Origin: a virus
IMG/VR virus record: IMGVR_UViG_3300025121_000112
Span: 1 to 31,339 of that record
DNA: 31,339 nt
Strand: one strand, 5' to 3'
Both the position numbers and the translations under genes were made by a program. The notes under the pieces are model-generated. The model did not search any database and was not told where the DNA came from. It was given only the letters and a program-made list of their open reading frames with translations. The first letter of the stretch is position 1. Every line of letters starts with the position of its first letter. Of this stretch, positions 6,804-26,169 are shown one piece after another.

Positions 6804-7645
6804 TGGCAGTTGGACAGATAACAATTACGCAATATGACGGTAACATCCAATATTGCCGCGTCTATAATGGTGCCGCTTTTACGAATAATGACGCGGAAGC
6901 CACGAGCATCGGCGGCACTCCCTTTACGCTCTGGACGGATTCAAACGATTATGTTTACGTCGGTGCCGATGCAACCTTCGCTTATGTCGGATTTCGCGTT
7001 GCCACGGCAGGCGTCGGGTATGGGACTTTCACTTTTGAATATTGGAATGGCGCATGGACGGCGTTGACGGCGCTTTTTAACAATACATCCTCATTCAGCG
7101 TATCGGGCTATCTTGCATGGAGCGTTCCCGGCGATTGGGCAGCCACAACGGTTGATACTAAATCCGCATATTGGATTCGAGCCTCGCAATCCGCCGTTGC
7201 TCCCGGCACAGCCGCGACCGCCTATCATCTCTTGCGGAATCTGACACTGACAGAGCCGCTCCATAATTATGGCCCGGAATTTGAATACGACACTGTCTAC
7301 CCCGATATCAACGGCGCGCTCCACAAAAAAGACATGACTTACAAGGGGCCGTCCAAGCTGACAGTCGGGATTACGCAGATCGCCTGCACTTACGCGAACT
7401 TCCAGCTATTGCAGGACTGGAAGTTATATCGAAACTCACTTTACATTCAGGACGAGGCGGTTACGTCACCGATTGATTTAACGGCGGATTCATACTACCG
7501 GATCATGGAGGGATATCTGGTTTATGTGCCGCCCGAGATGATGGCGGCGGGGAAAATGCCGCTTGACCCGGGCGCGTATTACCCGCTTGTTTTCAAGATC
7601 GACACCATCGTTACGCAGACGAGCCTTTTAGGAAAAGCACTATGA
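6803..7645 (+). CDS. Putative distal tail protein (Dit-like) with an N-terminal sugar-binding-like domain
   Basis: A 280-residue protein in the Dit position, between tape measure and hub. The N-terminal 130 residues are strand-rich with many aromatic residues (FEYWNGAWTALTAL, VSGYLAWSVPGDWA, AYWIRASQS). This W/Y-rich pattern, with a 'G-x-w-x-x-P-x-D-W' turn and 'YWIR', recurs in phage and bacterial surface proteins and may bind carbohydrate. The C-terminal 140 residues would be the tail-ring part. The assignment rests on gene order and size. Its stop overlaps the next gene by ATGA. Confidence 0.45.
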   Translation: MAVGQITITQYDGNIQYCRVYNGAAFTNNDAEATSIGGTPFTLWTDSNDYVYVGADATFAYVGFRVATAGVGYGTFTFEYWNGAWTALTALFNNTSSFSVSGYLAWSVPGDWAATTVDTKSAYWIRASQSAVAPGTAATAYHLLRNLTLTEPLHNYGPEFEYDTVYPDINGALHKKDMTYKGPSKLTVGITQIACTYANFQLLQDWKLYRNSLYIQDEAVTSPIDLTADSYYRIMEGYLVYVPPEMMAAGKMPLDPGAYYPLVFKIDTIVTQTSLLGKAL

Positions 7646-7797
7646 GCCGCTTTAAATGGTTAACAGCATGGGTTTACTGCCCCGTATGCCAGAAGGAATG
7701 GGTAGCGGTCATGCCGATTGATGCGGTAAAAGAACAGATCGAATGCCCGTACTGCGGGGCGTGTCACGCGAGGCTTTATAGCGAATGCCGCAAATAA
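7642..7797 (+). CDS. Small zinc-ribbon protein in the tail operon
   Basis: A 51-residue open frame, start overlapping the previous stop (ATGA) and stop overlapping the hub gene start. It contains CPVC at residues 13-16 and CPYCGAC at 35-41, a spacing suited to a four-Cys zinc ribbon, with a fifth Cys near the end. Overlaps on both sides and the metal-binding pattern support a real gene although it is short. The role is unknown. Small zinc ribbons between distal tail and hub genes could be assembly factors or minor virion parts. Confidence 0.65.
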   Translation: MSRFKWLTAWVYCPVCQKEWVAVMPIDAVKEQIECPYCGACHARLYSECRK

Positions 7798-10154
7798 CAG
7801 TCACATTCAGTAATCCCACCTATAACCTCAATGCCGATCCCGCTCTGGGGAAAACCGCCACGGACATCCCGGTCGAGACATTTACAAAGCAACACGCCTT
7901 CGATTCGATCTCGACCGCCACGCTTTACATCAGGACGGATGTACTTTCGATTTACAGCATCGAAACCGCCGACCTGACAAACGCCTGTCAACTCAACAGC
8001 ACGGTTACGGTTGTCGAAGGCGCGGCTTACCACTTCCGGGGATACGTCCACAGCAAGCCGCTTTACAAGACTTTTGAGGAAGGGAATTATCTGGTTGTCG
8101 AGTGCATGGGATGGGATGGGATTCTCGGACAGGCCTTGTGCGTGGATGCTTCCGGAAATGACATCTGGACGCTGGAATCAAGTAAGTATGCGCTGACAAA
8201 CATGCCCTTGCAGGCGACGGCTGCTTACGGCACCTTTCAGGGCAGCACGCTTTGGCCTGACCCGGACGATGCTACGGGGTTAGAGTGTTACGTCGCGGGC
8301 GCGAATGATGTCTTGTACACGGACGGAGTAGGCACGGTGCTATCGGCTGTTGCCACAACGATTATTTTAACGAGCACGACAAAGGGCTTTGTCCCTCGCG
8401 GCTGGATTAAGATTGATTCGGAATGGATATATTTTGACGGATATGACAACTCAAATGCTGACACAAAATACCGCTTGTATAACTGCGTCCGTGGTCAGTT
8501 GGGTACGGCGGCGGCTACTCATGCGGAGGGCGTCACGGTCTACGAAAAGCTCGGCAAGCAAATCGCTCCGGCGGCACTCGACCTCCAAAACGACCCGCTT
8601 GGCGGCACGGCCTGGAAAACGGTGAGGCGCGGGGCTGAATTCGACGTCCACGACGCGCTGGGATGCTTCGTGTTACGCGATCCGGCGGCAGGCACGTATC
8701 GAGCCACTTGCTCGGTTTACGACGAGGACAGCTCACTTGACGCTGCCTCAGTACCTATTTCGTTGAACGATGTGGTGACAAAGATAATGACCGGCACGGC
8801 TGCCAACTTTGGGCCGGGGTTCGTCGCCGGTGATTTAGATTTAAGCAGCACGACCGCCGCCTTGAAAGTTAACCGCTACGATTACGACCCGCAGAAAAAA
8901 CAGCAATACGCCTTCGATGCGATTCAGGAGCTTCTTGCCGCCGTGGGTTTGGAGAATGAGATTAAGTTTTGGTACAAGCATTCGACCGGGAAATTCCGTC
9001 TGACAGTTTTGGCAAATGACACGTCCAGTTTCACGCTTCCGAACACGTCGCGGGTGGAGCATGAGTTCACGCTTGCGGATGTCTATTCAGCGATCCGGGT
9101 TGAATTCAGCGATGACCAGAACCTTAACCGCGCCTGCAAAACGTATTCATGGCATCAGGCCGCCACAGACAGCGGCACAAGTCCAACTGCTTACTGGGGC
9201 GTTGAAAAAGGCGGCGCGTCGTGGGGATGGGATTCCCATACGACCGTTACGGCTGCCGGTAACGATGATATGCAGTGGACTTGCGACGGGAAAAACGACA
9301 GCAAGGTCGGGGCGATCTGGACGAATGAGAATCCCGGCGCGTCTATTAACTTCGCTGATTTCTTTTTTGGCACAGGCACGACACCGCCGTCAATTGACCT
9401 TGATAAAATCAAACTCGCGGTCGGAAATTACAGGGCAATCGAGGGATGGAATCGCAGCACCGATAACACGACCTTTACTTGGGTTGTGCGCGTATACGGT
9501 TGTGACAATTACGACACTACCAGCGCGGCGACACGGAACGCTTCTACCTGGGTTGACCTCGGCTTTTCGATGGAAGGGACACCGGCTGCCGAAGGTTCGT
9601 GGGTCGAAGGTGAAGCCCTTGCCTTTGCCAAGCGTCGTGTAAACGCGATCCGGCTTGTGTGGGATTACATGCCCGGCCCGAAAACATCAGGGGAATATTA
9701 TTATGCAGTGCTGCATGACATCGAAATCCTCGGCAATTTAATCAAATACGCTCGTTGTCAACTGGCTTCCACAGGCGCGGGCGATGCGGCAAAGTTAGTG
9801 GCACCCGCGAGTTATGAAAAGCTCCGGGGTGGCGTGAAGGCGTCGACCGGGGTAGCAGGCTGCCAGCGCGTGAAGAGTGTCAAACTTGGTGCCGCGTCCG
9901 GTCCGGCTGCGCAAAGCATGGCGCGGATACTTTTGCTGACTTACTTGCGGATGTCCGAGATGCGCCGGTACAGTTATCAGGGCGTACTGCCCGGCACACC
10001 GGAGCTTGGCATTACGATTGCCTGCGATGAGGACAACGACACGGTCGTCGATTATACCGGCGTGCTCCGGGAGTATTCGTTTGCAATCGGCCCGGTGGGG
10101 ATTAGTGAAGCGACGGGTACGATCCTATCGACGGTACAGGCGGTGATCGACTAA
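7785..10154 (+). CDS. Baseplate hub / tail-associated protein
   Basis: A 789-residue protein, the largest of the tail tip genes. Its N-terminal region (about 1-170) reads like a hub domain, with many strands and a segment on binding and displacement (YHFRGYVHSKPLYKTFEEGN). Residues about 180-265 form a separate module with GWIKIDSEWIYFDGYDNS and YNCVRGQLGTAAATHAEG, a pattern I recognise as an inserted domain in other phage tail proteins. A further strand-rich region around 440-640 contains many Trp and may contact the cell surface. The C-terminal 130 residues return to a hub-like fold. No peptidase or lysozyme motif is visible. The start overlaps the zinc-ribbon gene by 13 bases. Confidence 0.6.
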   Translation: MPQITVTFSNPTYNLNADPALGKTATDIPVETFTKQHAFDSISTATLYIRTDVLSIYSIETADLTNACQLNSTVTVVEGAAYHFRGYVHSKPLYKTFEEGNYLVVECMGWDGILGQALCVDASGNDIWTLESSKYALTNMPLQATAAYGTFQGSTLWPDPDDATGLECYVAGANDVLYTDGVGTVLSAVATTIILTSTTKGFVPRGWIKIDSEWIYFDGYDNSNADTKYRLYNCVRGQLGTAAATHAEGVTVYEKLGKQIAPAALDLQNDPLGGTAWKTVRRGAEFDVHDALGCFVLRDPAAGTYRATCSVYDEDSSLDAASVPISLNDVVTKIMTGTAANFGPGFVAGDLDLSSTTAALKVNRYDYDPQKKQQYAFDAIQELLAAVGLENEIKFWYKHSTGKFRLTVLANDTSSFTLPNTSRVEHEFTLADVYSAIRVEFSDDQNLNRACKTYSWHQAATDSGTSPTAYWGVEKGGASWGWDSHTTVTAAGNDDMQWTCDGKNDSKVGAIWTNENPGASINFADFFFGTGTTPPSIDLDKIKLAVGNYRAIEGWNRSTDNTTFTWVVRVYGCDNYDTTSAATRNASTWVDLGFSMEGTPAAEGSWVEGEALAFAKRRVNAIRLVWDYMPGPKTSGEYYYAVLHDIEILGNLIKYARCQLASTGAGDAAKLVAPASYEKLRGGVKASTGVAGCQRVKSVKLGAASGPAAQSMARILLLTYLRMSEMRRYSYQGVLPGTPELGITIACDEDNDTVVDYTGVLREYSFAIGPVGISEATGTILSTVQAVID

Positions 10155-12498: not shown

Positions 12499-12556
12499 GC
12501 GCCGCCTCGTCGCCTATGCGCTGGCTTGTCACCACGTTATGCTCGATGCCGTTCAT
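12482..12556 (-). CDS. Mini-ORF ending in a QxxLF clamp-binding-like motif
   Basis: A 24-residue frame whose ATG overlaps the stop of frame 12553-13701 (ATGA) and sits next to the methyltransferase stop. The peptide ends AAQGKLF. Gln-x-x-Leu-Phe is the form of the bacterial sliding-clamp binding motif, which is often C-terminal. GGGCGGTG a few bases upstream may act as ribosome site. It may also be the relic of a longer gene broken by arrival of the radical SAM gene, because the same end sequence recurs at 11641. Real translation is uncertain. Confidence 0.3.
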   Translation of the reverse strand: MNGIEHNVVTSQRIGDEAAQGKLF

Positions 12557-12569
12557 TCATGCACCGCCC
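12553..12569. repeat. 17-bp direct repeat, far side of the methyltransferase-endonuclease module
   Basis: TCATTCATGCACCGCCC occurs here and at 14148-14164. In both places, read leftward, it encodes Ala-Val-His-Glu-stop at the end of a reading frame: the overlapping frame 12553-13701 here, and gene 14148-14519 there. The copies enclose the methyltransferase and homing endonuclease genes. Confidence 0.75.
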
Positions 12570-13701
12570 AATCGATTCCATGCTTCTCTAACCACTCGTG
12601 AAACCTGCCCGTTACCAATGGCTTTAAGTCGGTCCACCCGATAGGCCACCCCATGAGCCACTCGACCCACGAAGGATTTAGCTGTCCCCCTATCACTGTC
12701 TGTAAATCCTTCCCCCCCTGTCCATGCTCTCCCGGACTGTTCGCACATTGCCTTTTCGGTGTCGGGTAAGCTATTCGAGTCGCAAGGTGTTGCGCTTTCT
12801 CCGGCGGTCTGCCCGTCGTTCTCGGAAGCCCGAACTCCCCGTCCGATGCTTTCGGAGTCGGGTAAGTCTGCCGGGTCGATGTCCCACCATGTGCAACGGC
12901 ATTTGGCAGGCAGTCCCCCGGTGCATGTATCCCCCGCTGACTCATGCCCTTGTAATCGCGGGACTTCGGGGACGGCCATCTGACTTGCATCGATAGCGGA
13001 GTTCCGCCCTGTTTGTATTTCGTGTTCCGACCACCCGTGTCCCCACTGGTCGGGGTTGTCCACATTATTTGTTCTGCCAGACTCCCCGGTACATAATGCC
13101 GTCCTATCGATTCCCGATATGCTGTCCGCTTTTCTACTCTGTCCTCTCCCCCGGCTATTTGTTGTACAGTCGGAGTCAAATAAACGAATCCACAATCGTT
13201 TCCGTCTGTGCGGTGCTCCGACATCATCAGCCCCGATAACTCCCCACCGGCAATCATACCCCAGTTCGGAAATATCTCCAAAGATGCGCCCCATGTATCC
13301 TGAAACAAGCAGCCCTGGAACGTTCTCCAAGAGCGCGTATCGAGGTCGTACTTCGCCAATGATACGGATTGTTTCAGGCCACATGTTCCGTTCGTCGTCG
13401 GCTCCCCGTCGCTTGCCTGCGATCGAGAATGGTTGACACGGAAAACCCGCAGAGATGCAATCCACGATTCCACGCCACGGCTTTCCGTCGAAGGTTCGCA
13501 CATCATCCCAGATTGGGAAGGCTTCGAGGATACCTTCTTCTTGTCGCCGTAACAGGACTTCTCGGCAATACGGTTCGATTTCAACTGCGCACACGATTCG
13601 GTGTCCAAGCAGTTTTGCTCCGAGAATTCCTCCACCAGCACCAGCGAAGAGTGCAAGTTCTCTAATTCCGCTATCATTGTTAGGGATAAATACCATGTCA
13701 T
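12553..13701 (-). CDS. Overlapping reading frame across the methyltransferase gene (382 codons)
   Basis: A second frame on the same strand covers the methyltransferase gene from end to end. Its ATG at 13701 has the better ribosome-site spacing (AAGGGG, five bases) and overlaps the endonuclease stop (ATGA). The product has family-like features: SLAKYDLDTRSWRTFQGCLF (about 114-133), FPNWGMIAGGEL (about 144-155), repeated [WY]-P-[TS]-P motifs with nearby Asp (about 242, 280, 312), and LNPSWVEWLMGWPIGWTDLK (341-360). From memory, these motifs recur in phage proteins linked to C5 methyltransferases. Its C-terminal codons share phase with the 14148 repeat copy. Either this is a true overlapping gene or a striking constraint on the other frame. 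Confidence 0.55.
   Translation of the reverse strand: MTWYLSLTMIAELENLHSSLVLVEEFSEQNCLDTESCAQLKSNRIAEKSCYGDKKKVSSKPSQSGMMCEPSTESRGVESWIASLRVFRVNHSRSQASDGEPTTNGTCGLKQSVSLAKYDLDTRSWRTFQGCLFQDTWGASLEIFPNWGMIAGGELSGLMMSEHRTDGNDCGFVYLTPTVQQIAGGEDRVEKRTAYRESIGRHYVPGSLAEQIMWTTPTSGDTGGRNTKYKQGGTPLSMQVRWPSPKSRDYKGMSQRGIHAPGDCLPNAVAHGGTSTRQTYPTPKASDGEFGLPRTTGRPPEKAQHLATRIAYPTPKRQCANSPGEHGQGGKDLQTVIGGQLNPSWVEWLMGWPIGWTDLKPLVTGRFHEWLEKHGIDWAVHE
12557..13696 (-). CDS. DNA (cytosine-5) methyltransferase
   Basis: A 379-residue protein. Motifs in order: I, LALFAGAGGGILG (14-26), SAM binding; IV, GFPCQPFS (84-91) with catalytic Cys87; VI, LLENVPG (122-128); VIII, HRRKR (163-167); and X near the end, AIGNGQV (about 359-365). 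All keys are present, so it should transfer a methyl group to C5 of cytosine. The recognition domain lies between about 175 and 330 and is fully overlapped by a second reading frame, which may explain its low hydrophobicity and repeated polar segments. The start at 13696 lies one base after the endonuclease stop, 10 bases after AAGGGG. Likely role: protecting phage DNA from host nucleases. Confidence 0.9.
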   Translation of the reverse strand: MVFIPNNDSGIRELALFAGAGGGILGAKLLGHRIVCAVEIEPYCREVLLRRQEEGILEAFPIWDDVRTFDGKPWRGIVDCISAGFPCQPFSIAGKRRGADDERNMWPETIRIIGEVRPRYALLENVPGLLVSGYMGRIFGDISELGYDCRWGVIGADDVGAPHRRKRLWIRLFDSDCTTNSRGRGQSRKADSISGIDRTALCTGESGRTNNVDNPDQWGHGWSEHEIQTGRNSAIDASQMAVPEVPRLQGHESAGDTCTGGLPAKCRCTWWDIDPADLPDSESIGRGVRASENDGQTAGESATPCDSNSLPDTEKAMCEQSGRAWTGGEGFTDSDRGTAKSFVGRVAHGVAYRVDRLKAIGNGQVSRVVREAWNRLGGA

Positions 13702-22947: not shown

Positions 22948-23913
22948 CTATCCTTCCGGTGTCGCTTCAAGTGATTTCAGGTGTGCGATTACTGCCTGCC
23001 CTTCATCGTAAGTCAGTTCTGCCGGATCAGCGGTTCGGCCTTTTGTGTACTCGTTGATCCATTCGCCAAAATCCCGACTGACTACCTTTTCGGCAATGGC
23101 GTAAATCATCTTGACCTGCTTTTCGGTCGGGTGTCCGGAGCTACCCCGCTTGACCGTGTCCGCTTTCTGTGCGCGTCCTGCATCAACCGCTTGTGCTACC
23201 TGACCGCTTTCGCCGGGTGTCCATTCTGGTTGTCCGGACGCCGGTCGACGCTTGTTCATGTCCTCGATATCCTGCGTGAAAACTTCCGATGCTCCGGTAA
23301 CTTTCAGGACAGCCGCCACGAAAGCCCGCTTATCAGCCATTTTCTCGCAGGTGTTGTATACGTCCGCGATGTCGGGGTTCTCGACCTTGCCAACTTCCTG
23401 GTCAGTAATCGCCGGATCGTCGTCGTCAAATGTCGCTCCGCATCCGCCCTTCTTTTTAAAGCAGACCCATCCGCCGCCGTATTCAGCCTTGCCTTTGATG
23501 ATCGCGGACTCGCCACAAGCCGGGCAAACGCGCTCTGAATTGCGGTAGCGGTACTTACTCTCCATTGTCGAGCATGACCCCGAACCATCGCCGAGGAAGG
23601 TCCCGTCCGTCGCATAAAGGCTGCATGTCGCACGGTATTCTCGGTGTCCGTTCGGCATGTCGATGATCTCAAAAACGGTTTTGGGTGCCAGCCTGAAAAG
23701 ATTCGCTATCTTTTCAGCACCGGGTTTAAGTAGCGTCGGCTTGGGGCCGCAACCGGGGATTTTCCCGAAATCGATGTTCGGTTTCATCGCCCGGGACATC
23801 GCCTCCTGGAGAATCTGTCGCCGCTTTATGATGCGGTCGATAGTCGGCGTGTCATCAACCGTGCTTATCGCCGTCCTCGTCGGTGTAGCCTGTGTGATTT
23901 TGTCTTCTGTCAT
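22948..23913 (-). CDS. Putative single-strand annealing (recombination) protein with zinc insert
   Basis: A 321-residue protein. KMADKRAFVAAVLKVTGASE and VFTQD (about 191-214) is a pattern I know from phage recombination proteins that sit near RusA genes (Sak/Erf-like or of uncertain family). A zinc module with C130, C133, C151 and C158 (CPAC...CFKKKGGC) is placed before it. The N-terminal half (LKPGAEKIANLFRLAP, then TCSLYATDGTFLGDG) is typical too. The C-terminal 90 residues resemble a short helical DNA-binding extension (GHPTEKQVKMIYAIAEKV). Likely role: annealing of single strands in recombination-dependent replication. GGGAG precedes the ATG. Confidence 0.55.
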   Translation of the reverse strand: MTEDKITQATPTRTAISTVDDTPTIDRIIKRRQILQEAMSRAMKPNIDFGKIPGCGPKPTLLKPGAEKIANLFRLAPKTVFEIIDMPNGHREYRATCSLYATDGTFLGDGSGSCSTMESKYRYRNSERVCPACGESAIIKGKAEYGGGWVCFKKKGGCGATFDDDDPAITDQEVGKVENPDIADVYNTCEKMADKRAFVAAVLKVTGASEVFTQDIEDMNKRRPASGQPEWTPGESGQVAQAVDAGRAQKADTVKRGSSGHPTEKQVKMIYAIAEKVVSRDFGEWINEYTKGRTADPAELTYDEGQAVIAHLKSLEATPEG

Positions 23914-24752: not shown

Positions 24753-25001
24753 TTATTTCCGCTTATCCGCACTTTTTTTCTCTTTTTCCCATTGCTTCAT
24801 TAACCGCATTTCCCCTAACTGCATGCGTAGAAGCGTCCCGGCGTTTACCTCATGCTTCCCTGATTTGATGCGGGATATATGAGATTCAAGACATTCACAT
24901 TCCCAGGCTATATCTCGCTGACTGAATCCGAGATTTACCAAATGTAAAATAATATTTTTTGCCTGTTCGCTCCGGTTCATTTGTTTTTCTTTTGGGTTCA
25001 T
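24753..25001 (-). CDS. Small HTH transcription regulator
   Basis: An 82-residue basic protein. FSQRDIAWECECLESHISRI (about 26-45) is a helix-turn-helix of the Cro/C1 class. The ATG at 25001 lies seven bases after the -10 box of a consensus promoter (25009-25037), so the mRNA would be leaderless, as for lambda cI transcribed from its maintenance promoter; an internal ATG at 24980 has only a weak purine site. It probably binds the divergent control region and sets the balance between leftward and rightward early genes. No integrase is seen, so it need not be a lysogeny repressor. Confidence 0.75.
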   Translation of the reverse strand: MNPKEKQMNRSEQAKNIILHLVNLGFSQRDIAWECECLESHISRIKSGKHEVNAGTLLRMQLGEMRLMKQWEKEKKSADKRK

Positions 25002-25046: not shown

Positions 25047-25075
25047 TTGACAAACGGGAAATCACTGGTTATAAT
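25047..25075 (+). promoter_or_regulatory. Consensus rightward promoter P1
   Basis: TTGACA (25047-25052), 17 bases, TATAAT (25070-25075): a perfect sigma-70 promoter. Transcription should start near 25082 and meet a terminator at 25129-25165, so its immediate product is a short RNA. It shares the 11-base TTGACAAACGG with P2. Confidence 0.85.
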
Positions 25076-25081
25076 CCTGAG

Positions 25082-25165
25082 TGTGAGTAAGTTGCAGTAC
25101 CCCCATTTAATCCTCCTCTTTGAGAAATGCCCCGGCGACATGGATGTTTCCGGGGCTACTTTTTT
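25082..25165 (+). ncRNA. Candidate small RNA (about 84 nt)
   Basis: Defined by P1 upstream and an intrinsic terminator downstream. No useful reading frame is present. The body holds a C/T-rich stretch with CCTCCT (25112-25117), complementary to a ribosome-binding site, as seen in small RNAs that block translation. Targets cannot be read; the purine-rich ribosome sites of many phage or host genes could pair with it. Confidence 0.5.
25129..25165 (+). terminator. Intrinsic terminator after P1
   Basis: GCCCCGG (25129-25135) pairs with CCGGGGC (25150-25156), and six T (25160-25165) follow closely. Rightward orientation. Confidence 0.8.
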
Positions 25166-25168
25166 CGC

Positions 25169-25197
25169 TTGACAAACGGATAAAATTAGTTTAAGAT
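25169..25197 (+). promoter_or_regulatory. Rightward promoter P2
   Basis: TTGACA (25169-25174), 17 bases, TAAGAT (25192-25197), four of six matches at the -10. TTGACAAACGG is shared with P1, suggesting a common regulator. Transcription would start near 25203 and enter the attenuator at 25210. Confidence 0.65.
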
Positions 25198-25209
25198 TCC
25201 CCCAGCGTT

Positions 25210-25264
25210 CTGTGAGACGCCCGAATAATACCCGAAGCCCCGTCTCACAGCGGGGTTCTTTTTT
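25210..25264 (+). terminator. Attenuator in the replication-gene leader (alternative stems)
   Basis: CCCCG (25238-25242) with CGGGG (25251-25255), extended by AAG/TT pairs and followed by CTTTTTT to 25264, is an intrinsic terminator. CTGTGAGACG (25210-25219) can instead pair with CGTCTCACAG (25241-25250), 10 exact pairs, using up the terminator's 5' arm and loop. The two structures exclude each other, as in transcription attenuation. What tips the balance is unknown. Confidence 0.7.
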
Positions 25265-25314
25265 GGGAAGCGGAGCCGCGCTTATCCCCCGGCTCCCTTC
25301 CCGAAGGGGATAAG
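25265..25314 (+). promoter_or_regulatory. Ribosome-site switch before the replication gene
   Basis: Stem 1: GGGAAG (25265-25270) and GGAGCCG (25272-25278) pair with CGGCTCC (25290-25296) and CTTCCC (25297-25302), 13 pairs with one bulge. Stem 2: CTTATCCCC (25281-25289), in the loop of stem 1, pairs with GGGGATAAG (25306-25314), nine pairs, covering the ribosome site AAGGGGA (25304-25310) of the ATG at 25318. With only three bases joining the stems, both can hardly form fully together, so they should alternate between open and closed start. Confidence 0.7.
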
Positions 25315-25317
25315 AAT

Positions 25318-26169
25318 ATGTCTGACCGCACGTGGAACCGCATTGAAGCTGCCCTTTACGAAGAAGAATGGTCACAGGCAGCGAGAATAATAGCTGGGGT
25401 AGTGCTTGCCAAATGCCCGAATCAGTACGGTATATTCAAATTTCCTTGGCAATTCCTGAAAGATCTTTTTGCCGGTATTTATAGTCGGACGGATATTGCC
25501 GGAGTGATAGCCGAATGGGAAGCGGACGGATGGGTTAAACTTTACGACGATCAGAAAATAATCTGGATCAAAAAGAAGTGGCAAAAGGAACAACCGAATC
25601 GCTCAACAAAGCATTGGCAAGGGCTTGCGACGTTTCTGAATGACTATCCGATGGTCATTAAAGACTTCATGGATTGTTACAATCCCCATGCCATCCCCAT
25701 TCAATCCCCATGCCATCCCCCTGTCAACTCTGATACTGATACTGAAACTGAAAAAAAGAAAGAAACTAATTTGGCGTCAAAAAGCGACGCCGATATAAAA
25801 AACGCTTCGCTTCCACCGGGAAACGGGAAGCCCTCAAAGCCACACATCCCCATCGAGGAACGGAAAGCCAACACCCCCATATCCCGCCTCGTCCAACAAT
25901 GGTTCCGCCATTACCTGAAGTACGAACAGATTCGCTGGTCAGGTGATCCTGCCGCGATGTCCGGGCAAGCTAAGATTCTCCTGAAATCCCACGATTACCC
26001 GACGCTCATAATGGCGATGGGGCACCTATTCGACAAGCCCCACGAAAAATACCGCCCCCACGAATGGAATTTTTACGTCCGCAAAATCTCAACCCTCATC
26101 CTGGAAGCGCAGGACGCCGGTTGCTTCCCCGATCCCCAACTGAAATTGGAGCGAACAAATCATGCCTAA
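25318..26169 (+). CDS. Replication initiation protein (lambda-O-like layout)
   Basis: A 283-residue protein. The N-terminal domain (about 1-105), with NQYGIFKFPWQFLKDLFAGI and EWEADGWVKLY, is a winged-helix DNA-binding domain as in many phage replication initiators. A low-complexity linker (about 122-175) is encoded by repeated DNA that may be the origin itself. The C-terminal domain (about 185-275) is helical and may recruit the host helicase. Expression is probably controlled by the structured leader. First gene of the rightward operon; it overlaps the next gene by eight bases. No helicase or primase gene is present, so host machinery must be recruited. Confidence 0.6.
   Translation: MSDRTWNRIEAALYEEEWSQAARIIAGVVLAKCPNQYGIFKFPWQFLKDLFAGIYSRTDIAGVIAEWEADGWVKLYDDQKIIWIKKKWQKEQPNRSTKHWQGLATFLNDYPMVIKDFMDCYNPHAIPIQSPCHPPVNSDTDTETEKKKETNLASKSDADIKNASLPPGNGKPSKPHIPIEERKANTPISRLVQQWFRHYLKYEQIRWSGDPAAMSGQAKILLKSHDYPTLIMAMGHLFDKPHEKYRPHEWNFYVRKISTLILEAQDAGCFPDPQLKLERTNHA
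25681..25791. other. Candidate replication origin inside the replication gene
   Basis: Two exact 18-bp repeats (AATCCCCATGCCATCCCC at 25681-25698 and 25703-25720) are followed by four 6-bp near-repeats (CTGATA, CTGATA, CTGAAA, CTGAAA; 25730-25753), an A-rich stretch (25750-25770) and a small palindrome (GGCGTC/GACGCC, 25773-25791). The order iterons then A+T-rich DNA within the linker of the initiator gene is the layout of the lambda origin. Confidence 0.55.

Follow-up and report, generated by a model that had tools for sequence, protein, structure and literature searches.

Conserved dual RNA control in the leader before a probable phage replication gene

What does a short phage leader control, and to what does it respond? 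The question is raised by an IMG/VR virus record, 31,339 bases long and called the window here as a whole, in which a leader (about 25204-25317, plus strand) precedes a gene for a 283-aa protein. A first-pass annotation had read this leader as two consecutive switches, one acting on transcription and one on translation, which would sense a protein, an antisense RNA or a metabolite. The leader is a genuine and conserved element of dual RNA control; on sequence grounds, its conservation in two related phages is the strongest support. These phages are IMGVR_UViG_3300031949_000126 (L002) and IMGVR_UViG_3300009285_001314 (L003). One was found by searching with the terminase and one with the protein encoded at 22948-23913, and the conservation sample is three leaders. 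No close relative of the window was found among annotated phages; a terminase scan of genomes gave one weak and partial match (31%), and the terminase and repressor scans yielded no further phage with the control region.

The regulated gene and the surroundings of the leader

The regulated gene (25318..26169, plus strand) is a probable replication initiator by its position only. No usable family match was found for the 283-aa protein, and no relatives were found in viral contigs, phages or plasmids; single-sequence structure prediction gives a pLDDT of 39. The proteins encoded at the same position in L002 and L003 match PHROG replication-initiation families, and in both phages a DnaB helicase comes next. 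The earlier label of replication gene has no sequence support in the window and rests on position, together with these counterparts. The three downstream proteins show no significant similarity to each other.

Transcription of the leader is predicted to start near 25204, from promoter P2 (TTGACA-17-TAAGAT; 25169..25197, plus strand). The P2 region (25168-25199) is identical at 30 of 32 nt between the window and L003. The -35 of P2 sits inside a repeated TTGACAAACGG motif, which is probably an operator; the motif is present at both -35 sites in the window. A small helix-turn-helix protein encoded on the minus strand (24753..25001; phrog_6831 match, 6e-07) is a probable repressor. It has 82 aa and stands in the place of 68-aa helix-turn-helix proteins in L002 (6054-6260) and L003 (8252-8458), which are 72% identical to each other; the phages thus carry different helix-turn-helix proteins despite a common promoter region.

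Upstream of P2 is an independent short transcription unit (25047..25166, plus strand), consisting of promoter P1 (12/12 matches to consensus) and an untranslated transcript of ~85 nt ended by a terminator at 25129-25165. The unit is kept in L002 and L003; a pattern search returned these two as its only true matches, and six other hits resembled coding sequence. It contains AATCCTCCT...GAGAA, which is either an anti-Shine-Dalgarno loop, belonging to a small RNA, or a strong ribosome site on the opposite strand (AGAGGAGG) before tiny ORFs. A functional tie between the unit and the leader is an unproven candidate. Pairing of its short RNA with the leader was not adopted, as matches in the window and L002 are at chance level. 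In L003 the upstream short RNA has a 15-pair match to the leader, beyond 300 shuffles; the match covers the 5' end of the leader near 7515-7501 (minus strand), including segment a (see below). L003 also has a gene for a 184-aa protein (7518-8224, minus strand) between the terminator of the P1 unit and P2; by eye, this protein looks like an HNH endonuclease. A short stretch elsewhere in the window (about 12550-12690) matches, at the DNA level, the DNA cytosine methyltransferase genes of phages (Acinetobacter and Salmonella phages).

Two stages of pairing

Stage 1 sets an antiterminator against an intrinsic terminator, both on the plus strand. Segment a (CTGTGAGACG, 25210..25219) is the complement of the terminator loop and forms a perfect 10-bp pairing with segment a' (CGTCTCACAG, 25241..25250). 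Segment a' lies mostly in the loop of terminator T (25236..25264; stem 25236-25257, T6 25259-25264) and makes the antiterminator when paired with a. The terminator stem, which comprises outer 7 pairs plus a G-T, has bases 25241-25243 and 25250 in common with a/a'. In the predicted fold with T in place, segment a is presented by a small 5' hairpin (25205..25220, plus strand); L002 and L003 have weak counterparts with different sequence. Of 20,000 dinucleotide shuffles, 11 produce a 10-bp pairing at the a/a' position. Across the window and related loci (660 kb with both strands counted), a stage-1 detector reports four sites, three of which are the leaders of the window, L002 and L003. The fourth, which came from a looser scan of all loci, lies in L010 (640-700, minus strand) ahead of a small ORF; it has a 10-bp CGTGCTGGCG/CGCCAGCACG pairing plus a terminator, lacks stage 2 and is possibly due to chance.

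Antiterminator and terminator energies are -15.7 and -18.0 kcal/mol in the window, -18.1 and -16.9 in L002, and -22.3 and -21.1 in L003; in none of the phages does the gap exceed about 2.3 kcal/mol. At equilibrium, the stage-1 segment leans to the terminator in the window (0.96) and to the antiterminator in L002 and L003, and the modelled default state may therefore differ between phages. When the nascent RNA is folded in order of synthesis, a/a' completes ahead of the terminator.

Stage 2 is built on hairpin H (25265..25302, plus strand), which has 13 pairs, one bulge and an 11-nt loop; 25265-25270 and 25272-25278 pair with 25290-25302, and C25271 is bulged. The last nine bases of the loop, segment b' (CTTATCCCC, 25281..25289), are a perfect complement of segment b (GGGGATAAG, 25306..25314), which lies in the ribosome-binding region and ends 3 nt before the ATG at 25318. 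The sequence of b' has no second occurrence in the window, and a loop complementary to the ribosome-binding site inside a hairpin is found in 2 of 20,000 dinucleotide shuffles. The fold of the whole leader has a z of -3.46 and is better than 199 of 200 shuffles.

All the elements that the first-pass annotation described are present, both in stage 1 (a 10-pair stem and a terminator with common bases) and in stage 2 (a 13-pair stem and a 9-pair stem over the ribosome site). Their description as mutually exclusive pairs holds for stage 1, where the two states are nearly isoenergetic, but fails for stage 2 as an equilibrium choice, in which H always wins in cis. H and the 9-pair b'/b stem have no bases in common and exclude each other by topology only, since forming both would give a pseudoknot in which a 3-nt linker has to span 13 bp. 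H and the loop/ribosome-site pairing have energies of -28.7 and -23.2 kcal/mol in the window, -33.7 and -16.9 in L002, and -29.4 and -23.9 in L003; H is favoured by 5.5, 16.8 and 5.5 kcal/mol, respectively. The equilibrium probability of the 9-pair stem in cis is 0.0, and folding also indicates that H forms before the ribosome site is made. Because H forms first, has the better energy and shares no bases with its rival, stage 2 is not a cis equilibrium choice. The complementarity is nevertheless kept, which indicates another use, with a partner molecule or in a partial contact of the loop while H stays intact; use in trans or as a contact between loop and ribosome site is the more likely explanation. 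In the window fold, the ribosome-site purines are also paired with the terminator T run; consequently, the site is not clearly open by default.

Conservation of the plan in two related phages

The L002 leader is alignable with that of the window. Within a/a', double compensatory changes are found in 4 of 10 pairs, with one pair broken and one added. H has two double compensatory changes and one A-U to G-U change. The L002 counterpart of b' is 8 nt long, and 3 of the 8 b/b' pairs have double changes with none broken. Under a null model in which the window arms are mutated at random (45% per site), the L002 pattern is reached in 218 of 400,000 trials for a/a', in 201 for b/b' and in none for both. 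The terminator stem is identical in the window and L002 while its loop and segment a diverge together; this is as expected for specificity segments. Stage 2 of L002 was missed by the architecture detector, although it is present.

L003 is more distant. Its similarity to the window ends at the predicted transcription start and its leader sequence is unrelated; the same plan is nonetheless rebuilt, with an 11-bp a/a' pairing, a terminator carrying a' in its loop, and a 12-bp hairpin whose loop contains a 10-nt segment able to pair without mismatch with the bases immediately ahead of the ATG. Base sharing was dropped as a criterion for exclusivity, as the L003 antiterminator and terminator have no common bases. 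That no leader sequence is common to the three phages and the encoded proteins are unrelated suggests RNA-RNA pairing as the conserved feature.

Compensatory changes in homologous leaders had been proposed as the check on the switch. They are found, so that the element survives this refutation test, and they support the claim that it regulates both transcription termination and translation. That the plan is kept despite differing letters suggests that the RNA brake on replication is real.

How the leader may act

The best reading, by analogy, is that the leader works like the P4 CI and P1/P7 C4 systems, with an RNA derived from it acting in trans on its own flanks; this specific proposal has a little under an even chance of being correct. 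It would rest on a loop-to-flank design, in which a matches the terminator loop and the H loop matches the ribosome-binding site. Judged from folding, nascent a would by default pair with a' before the terminator completes, so that transcription would tend to continue, and H would fold ahead of the appearance of the ribosome site. The effector would be a copy of the leader hairpins that accumulates as the phage multiplies; leader RNA that has been terminated or processed is its most likely source. Pairing of its a' loop with a on the nascent transcript would allow the terminator to form, and on completed messages its b' loop would pair with the ribosome site. Both trans pairings would thus reduce expression, giving a burst and then a brake that is specific to the phage's own sequence; in cis, the pairings would have opposite signs in the two stages. 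A simply terminated RNA holds a' without b', so the second arm would need read-through or processed RNA. Terminated RNA also holds both a and a', and its net effect could therefore be positive.

In P4 CI RNA, a single complementary segment, seqB, pairs with both seqA and seqC. These lie upstream and downstream of the CI RNA, and pairing with them terminates transcription of the replication genes (PMC4825925). The P4 leader and the leader described here are alike as phage replication-gene leaders in which complementary segments flank a structured middle and control premature termination (PMC4825925), although the identity of the window gene is positional only. They differ in that here two loops each have their own partner, a/a' and b/b' being two different pairs, and in that the ribosome site serves as the downstream partner. 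In addition, P4 CI is a stable, processed free RNA acting in trans, while the present leader is known from sequence only.

C4 RNA is processed by RNase P to an RNA of ~77 nt. In P1 and P7, its a' loop binds an upstream segment and its b' loop binds the ribosome site (PMC5320573). The same two loop-target matches are found in the window and L002, and by sequence in L003; divergence of the loops while the scaffold stays is a further likeness to C4 (RF01695; PMC5320573). In contrast to C4, the hairpins here lie between their two targets and one of them is itself a terminator. Searched with the RF01695 covariance model, the records of all three phages give no match, not even at E 10. As there is no such match and the two separate pairs are unlike P4, likeness is claimed and not membership. 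A further parallel is IsrK of prophage Gifsy-1, whose short terminated form targets, in trans, the read-through message of the same leader; there too, one leader gives a terminated short form and a read-through message through alternative structures (PMC4825925). However, IsrK activates translation and controls an antirepressor, and the leader here has no Rfam match to it or to others.

A rather unlikely alternative is a two-step attenuator acting purely in cis, in which polymerase speed or pausing, or a host factor, sets stage 1 while a partial pseudoknot between the H loop and the ribosome site tunes translation. The near-isoenergetic stage-1 states in all three phages and the earlier completion of the antiterminator fit such a device, and geometry suggests that some of b might contact the loop without H opening. 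Against it, full loop/ribosome-site pairing has a probability of 0.0 in cis although the complementarity is kept, and the sign of the cis pairing differs between the stages. Attenuation of the plasmid type (pT181, pIP501), in which an antisense RNA from the opposite strand blocks a and causes termination, is improbable. The logic of a mutually exclusive antiterminator and terminator in a replication-gene leader is the same, and pT181 likewise controls transcription and translation together (PMC5435934), but here separate modules serve the two levels. The three phages have no conserved opposite-strand promoter in the leader: candidates reach 9/12 matches at best and lie in non-corresponding places, and such a promoter was ruled out for this reason.

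Were the inverted repeats DNA sites for a protein (an operator or replication origin), the arm changes would reflect symmetric binding, since both arms change in symmetric operators too. One-mismatch 10-mer copies number 6 in the window against 1.6 expected, two of them being the arms themselves. This explanation is very improbable: the arms coincide with the terminator loop and the ribosome site in all three phages, b' has no other copy in the window and the encoded proteins are unrelated. Hardly probable at all is a ligand- or protein-binding riboswitch or a leader-peptide attenuator, although either would explain how one leader controls two expression levels. Only about 40 nt lie ahead of the terminator, no leader reading frame is common to the three phages, and Rfam searches at the gathering threshold and at a permissive E found nothing relevant. 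No aptamer-like sequence is conserved, as L003 similarity does not extend past the predicted transcription start; with no leader sequence common to all three, a metabolite aptamer is unlikely. Sensing of a metabolite, as the first-pass annotation had allowed, is thus unlikely, and so is sensing of the encoded protein, because the alignable window and L002 leaders precede unrelated proteins. Of the options it named, an antisense-type RNA fits best.

Detailed knowledge of RNA-based phage immunity and replication timing is available for few systems (P4, P1/P7). If the trans-acting reading is correct, the leader would unite a transcription brake and a translation brake in a compact element whose plan is kept without sequence conservation; segments a, a', b and b' are suited to compensatory-mutation tests. 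Tentatively, and with a smaller chance than the mechanism itself, such leaders may form a new family of self-targeting leader RNAs, in which the plan is conserved and the letters are free, so that each phage has a private replication brake or immunity group. Leaders of this kind would escape sequence and covariance searches and would perhaps be commoner than annotated.
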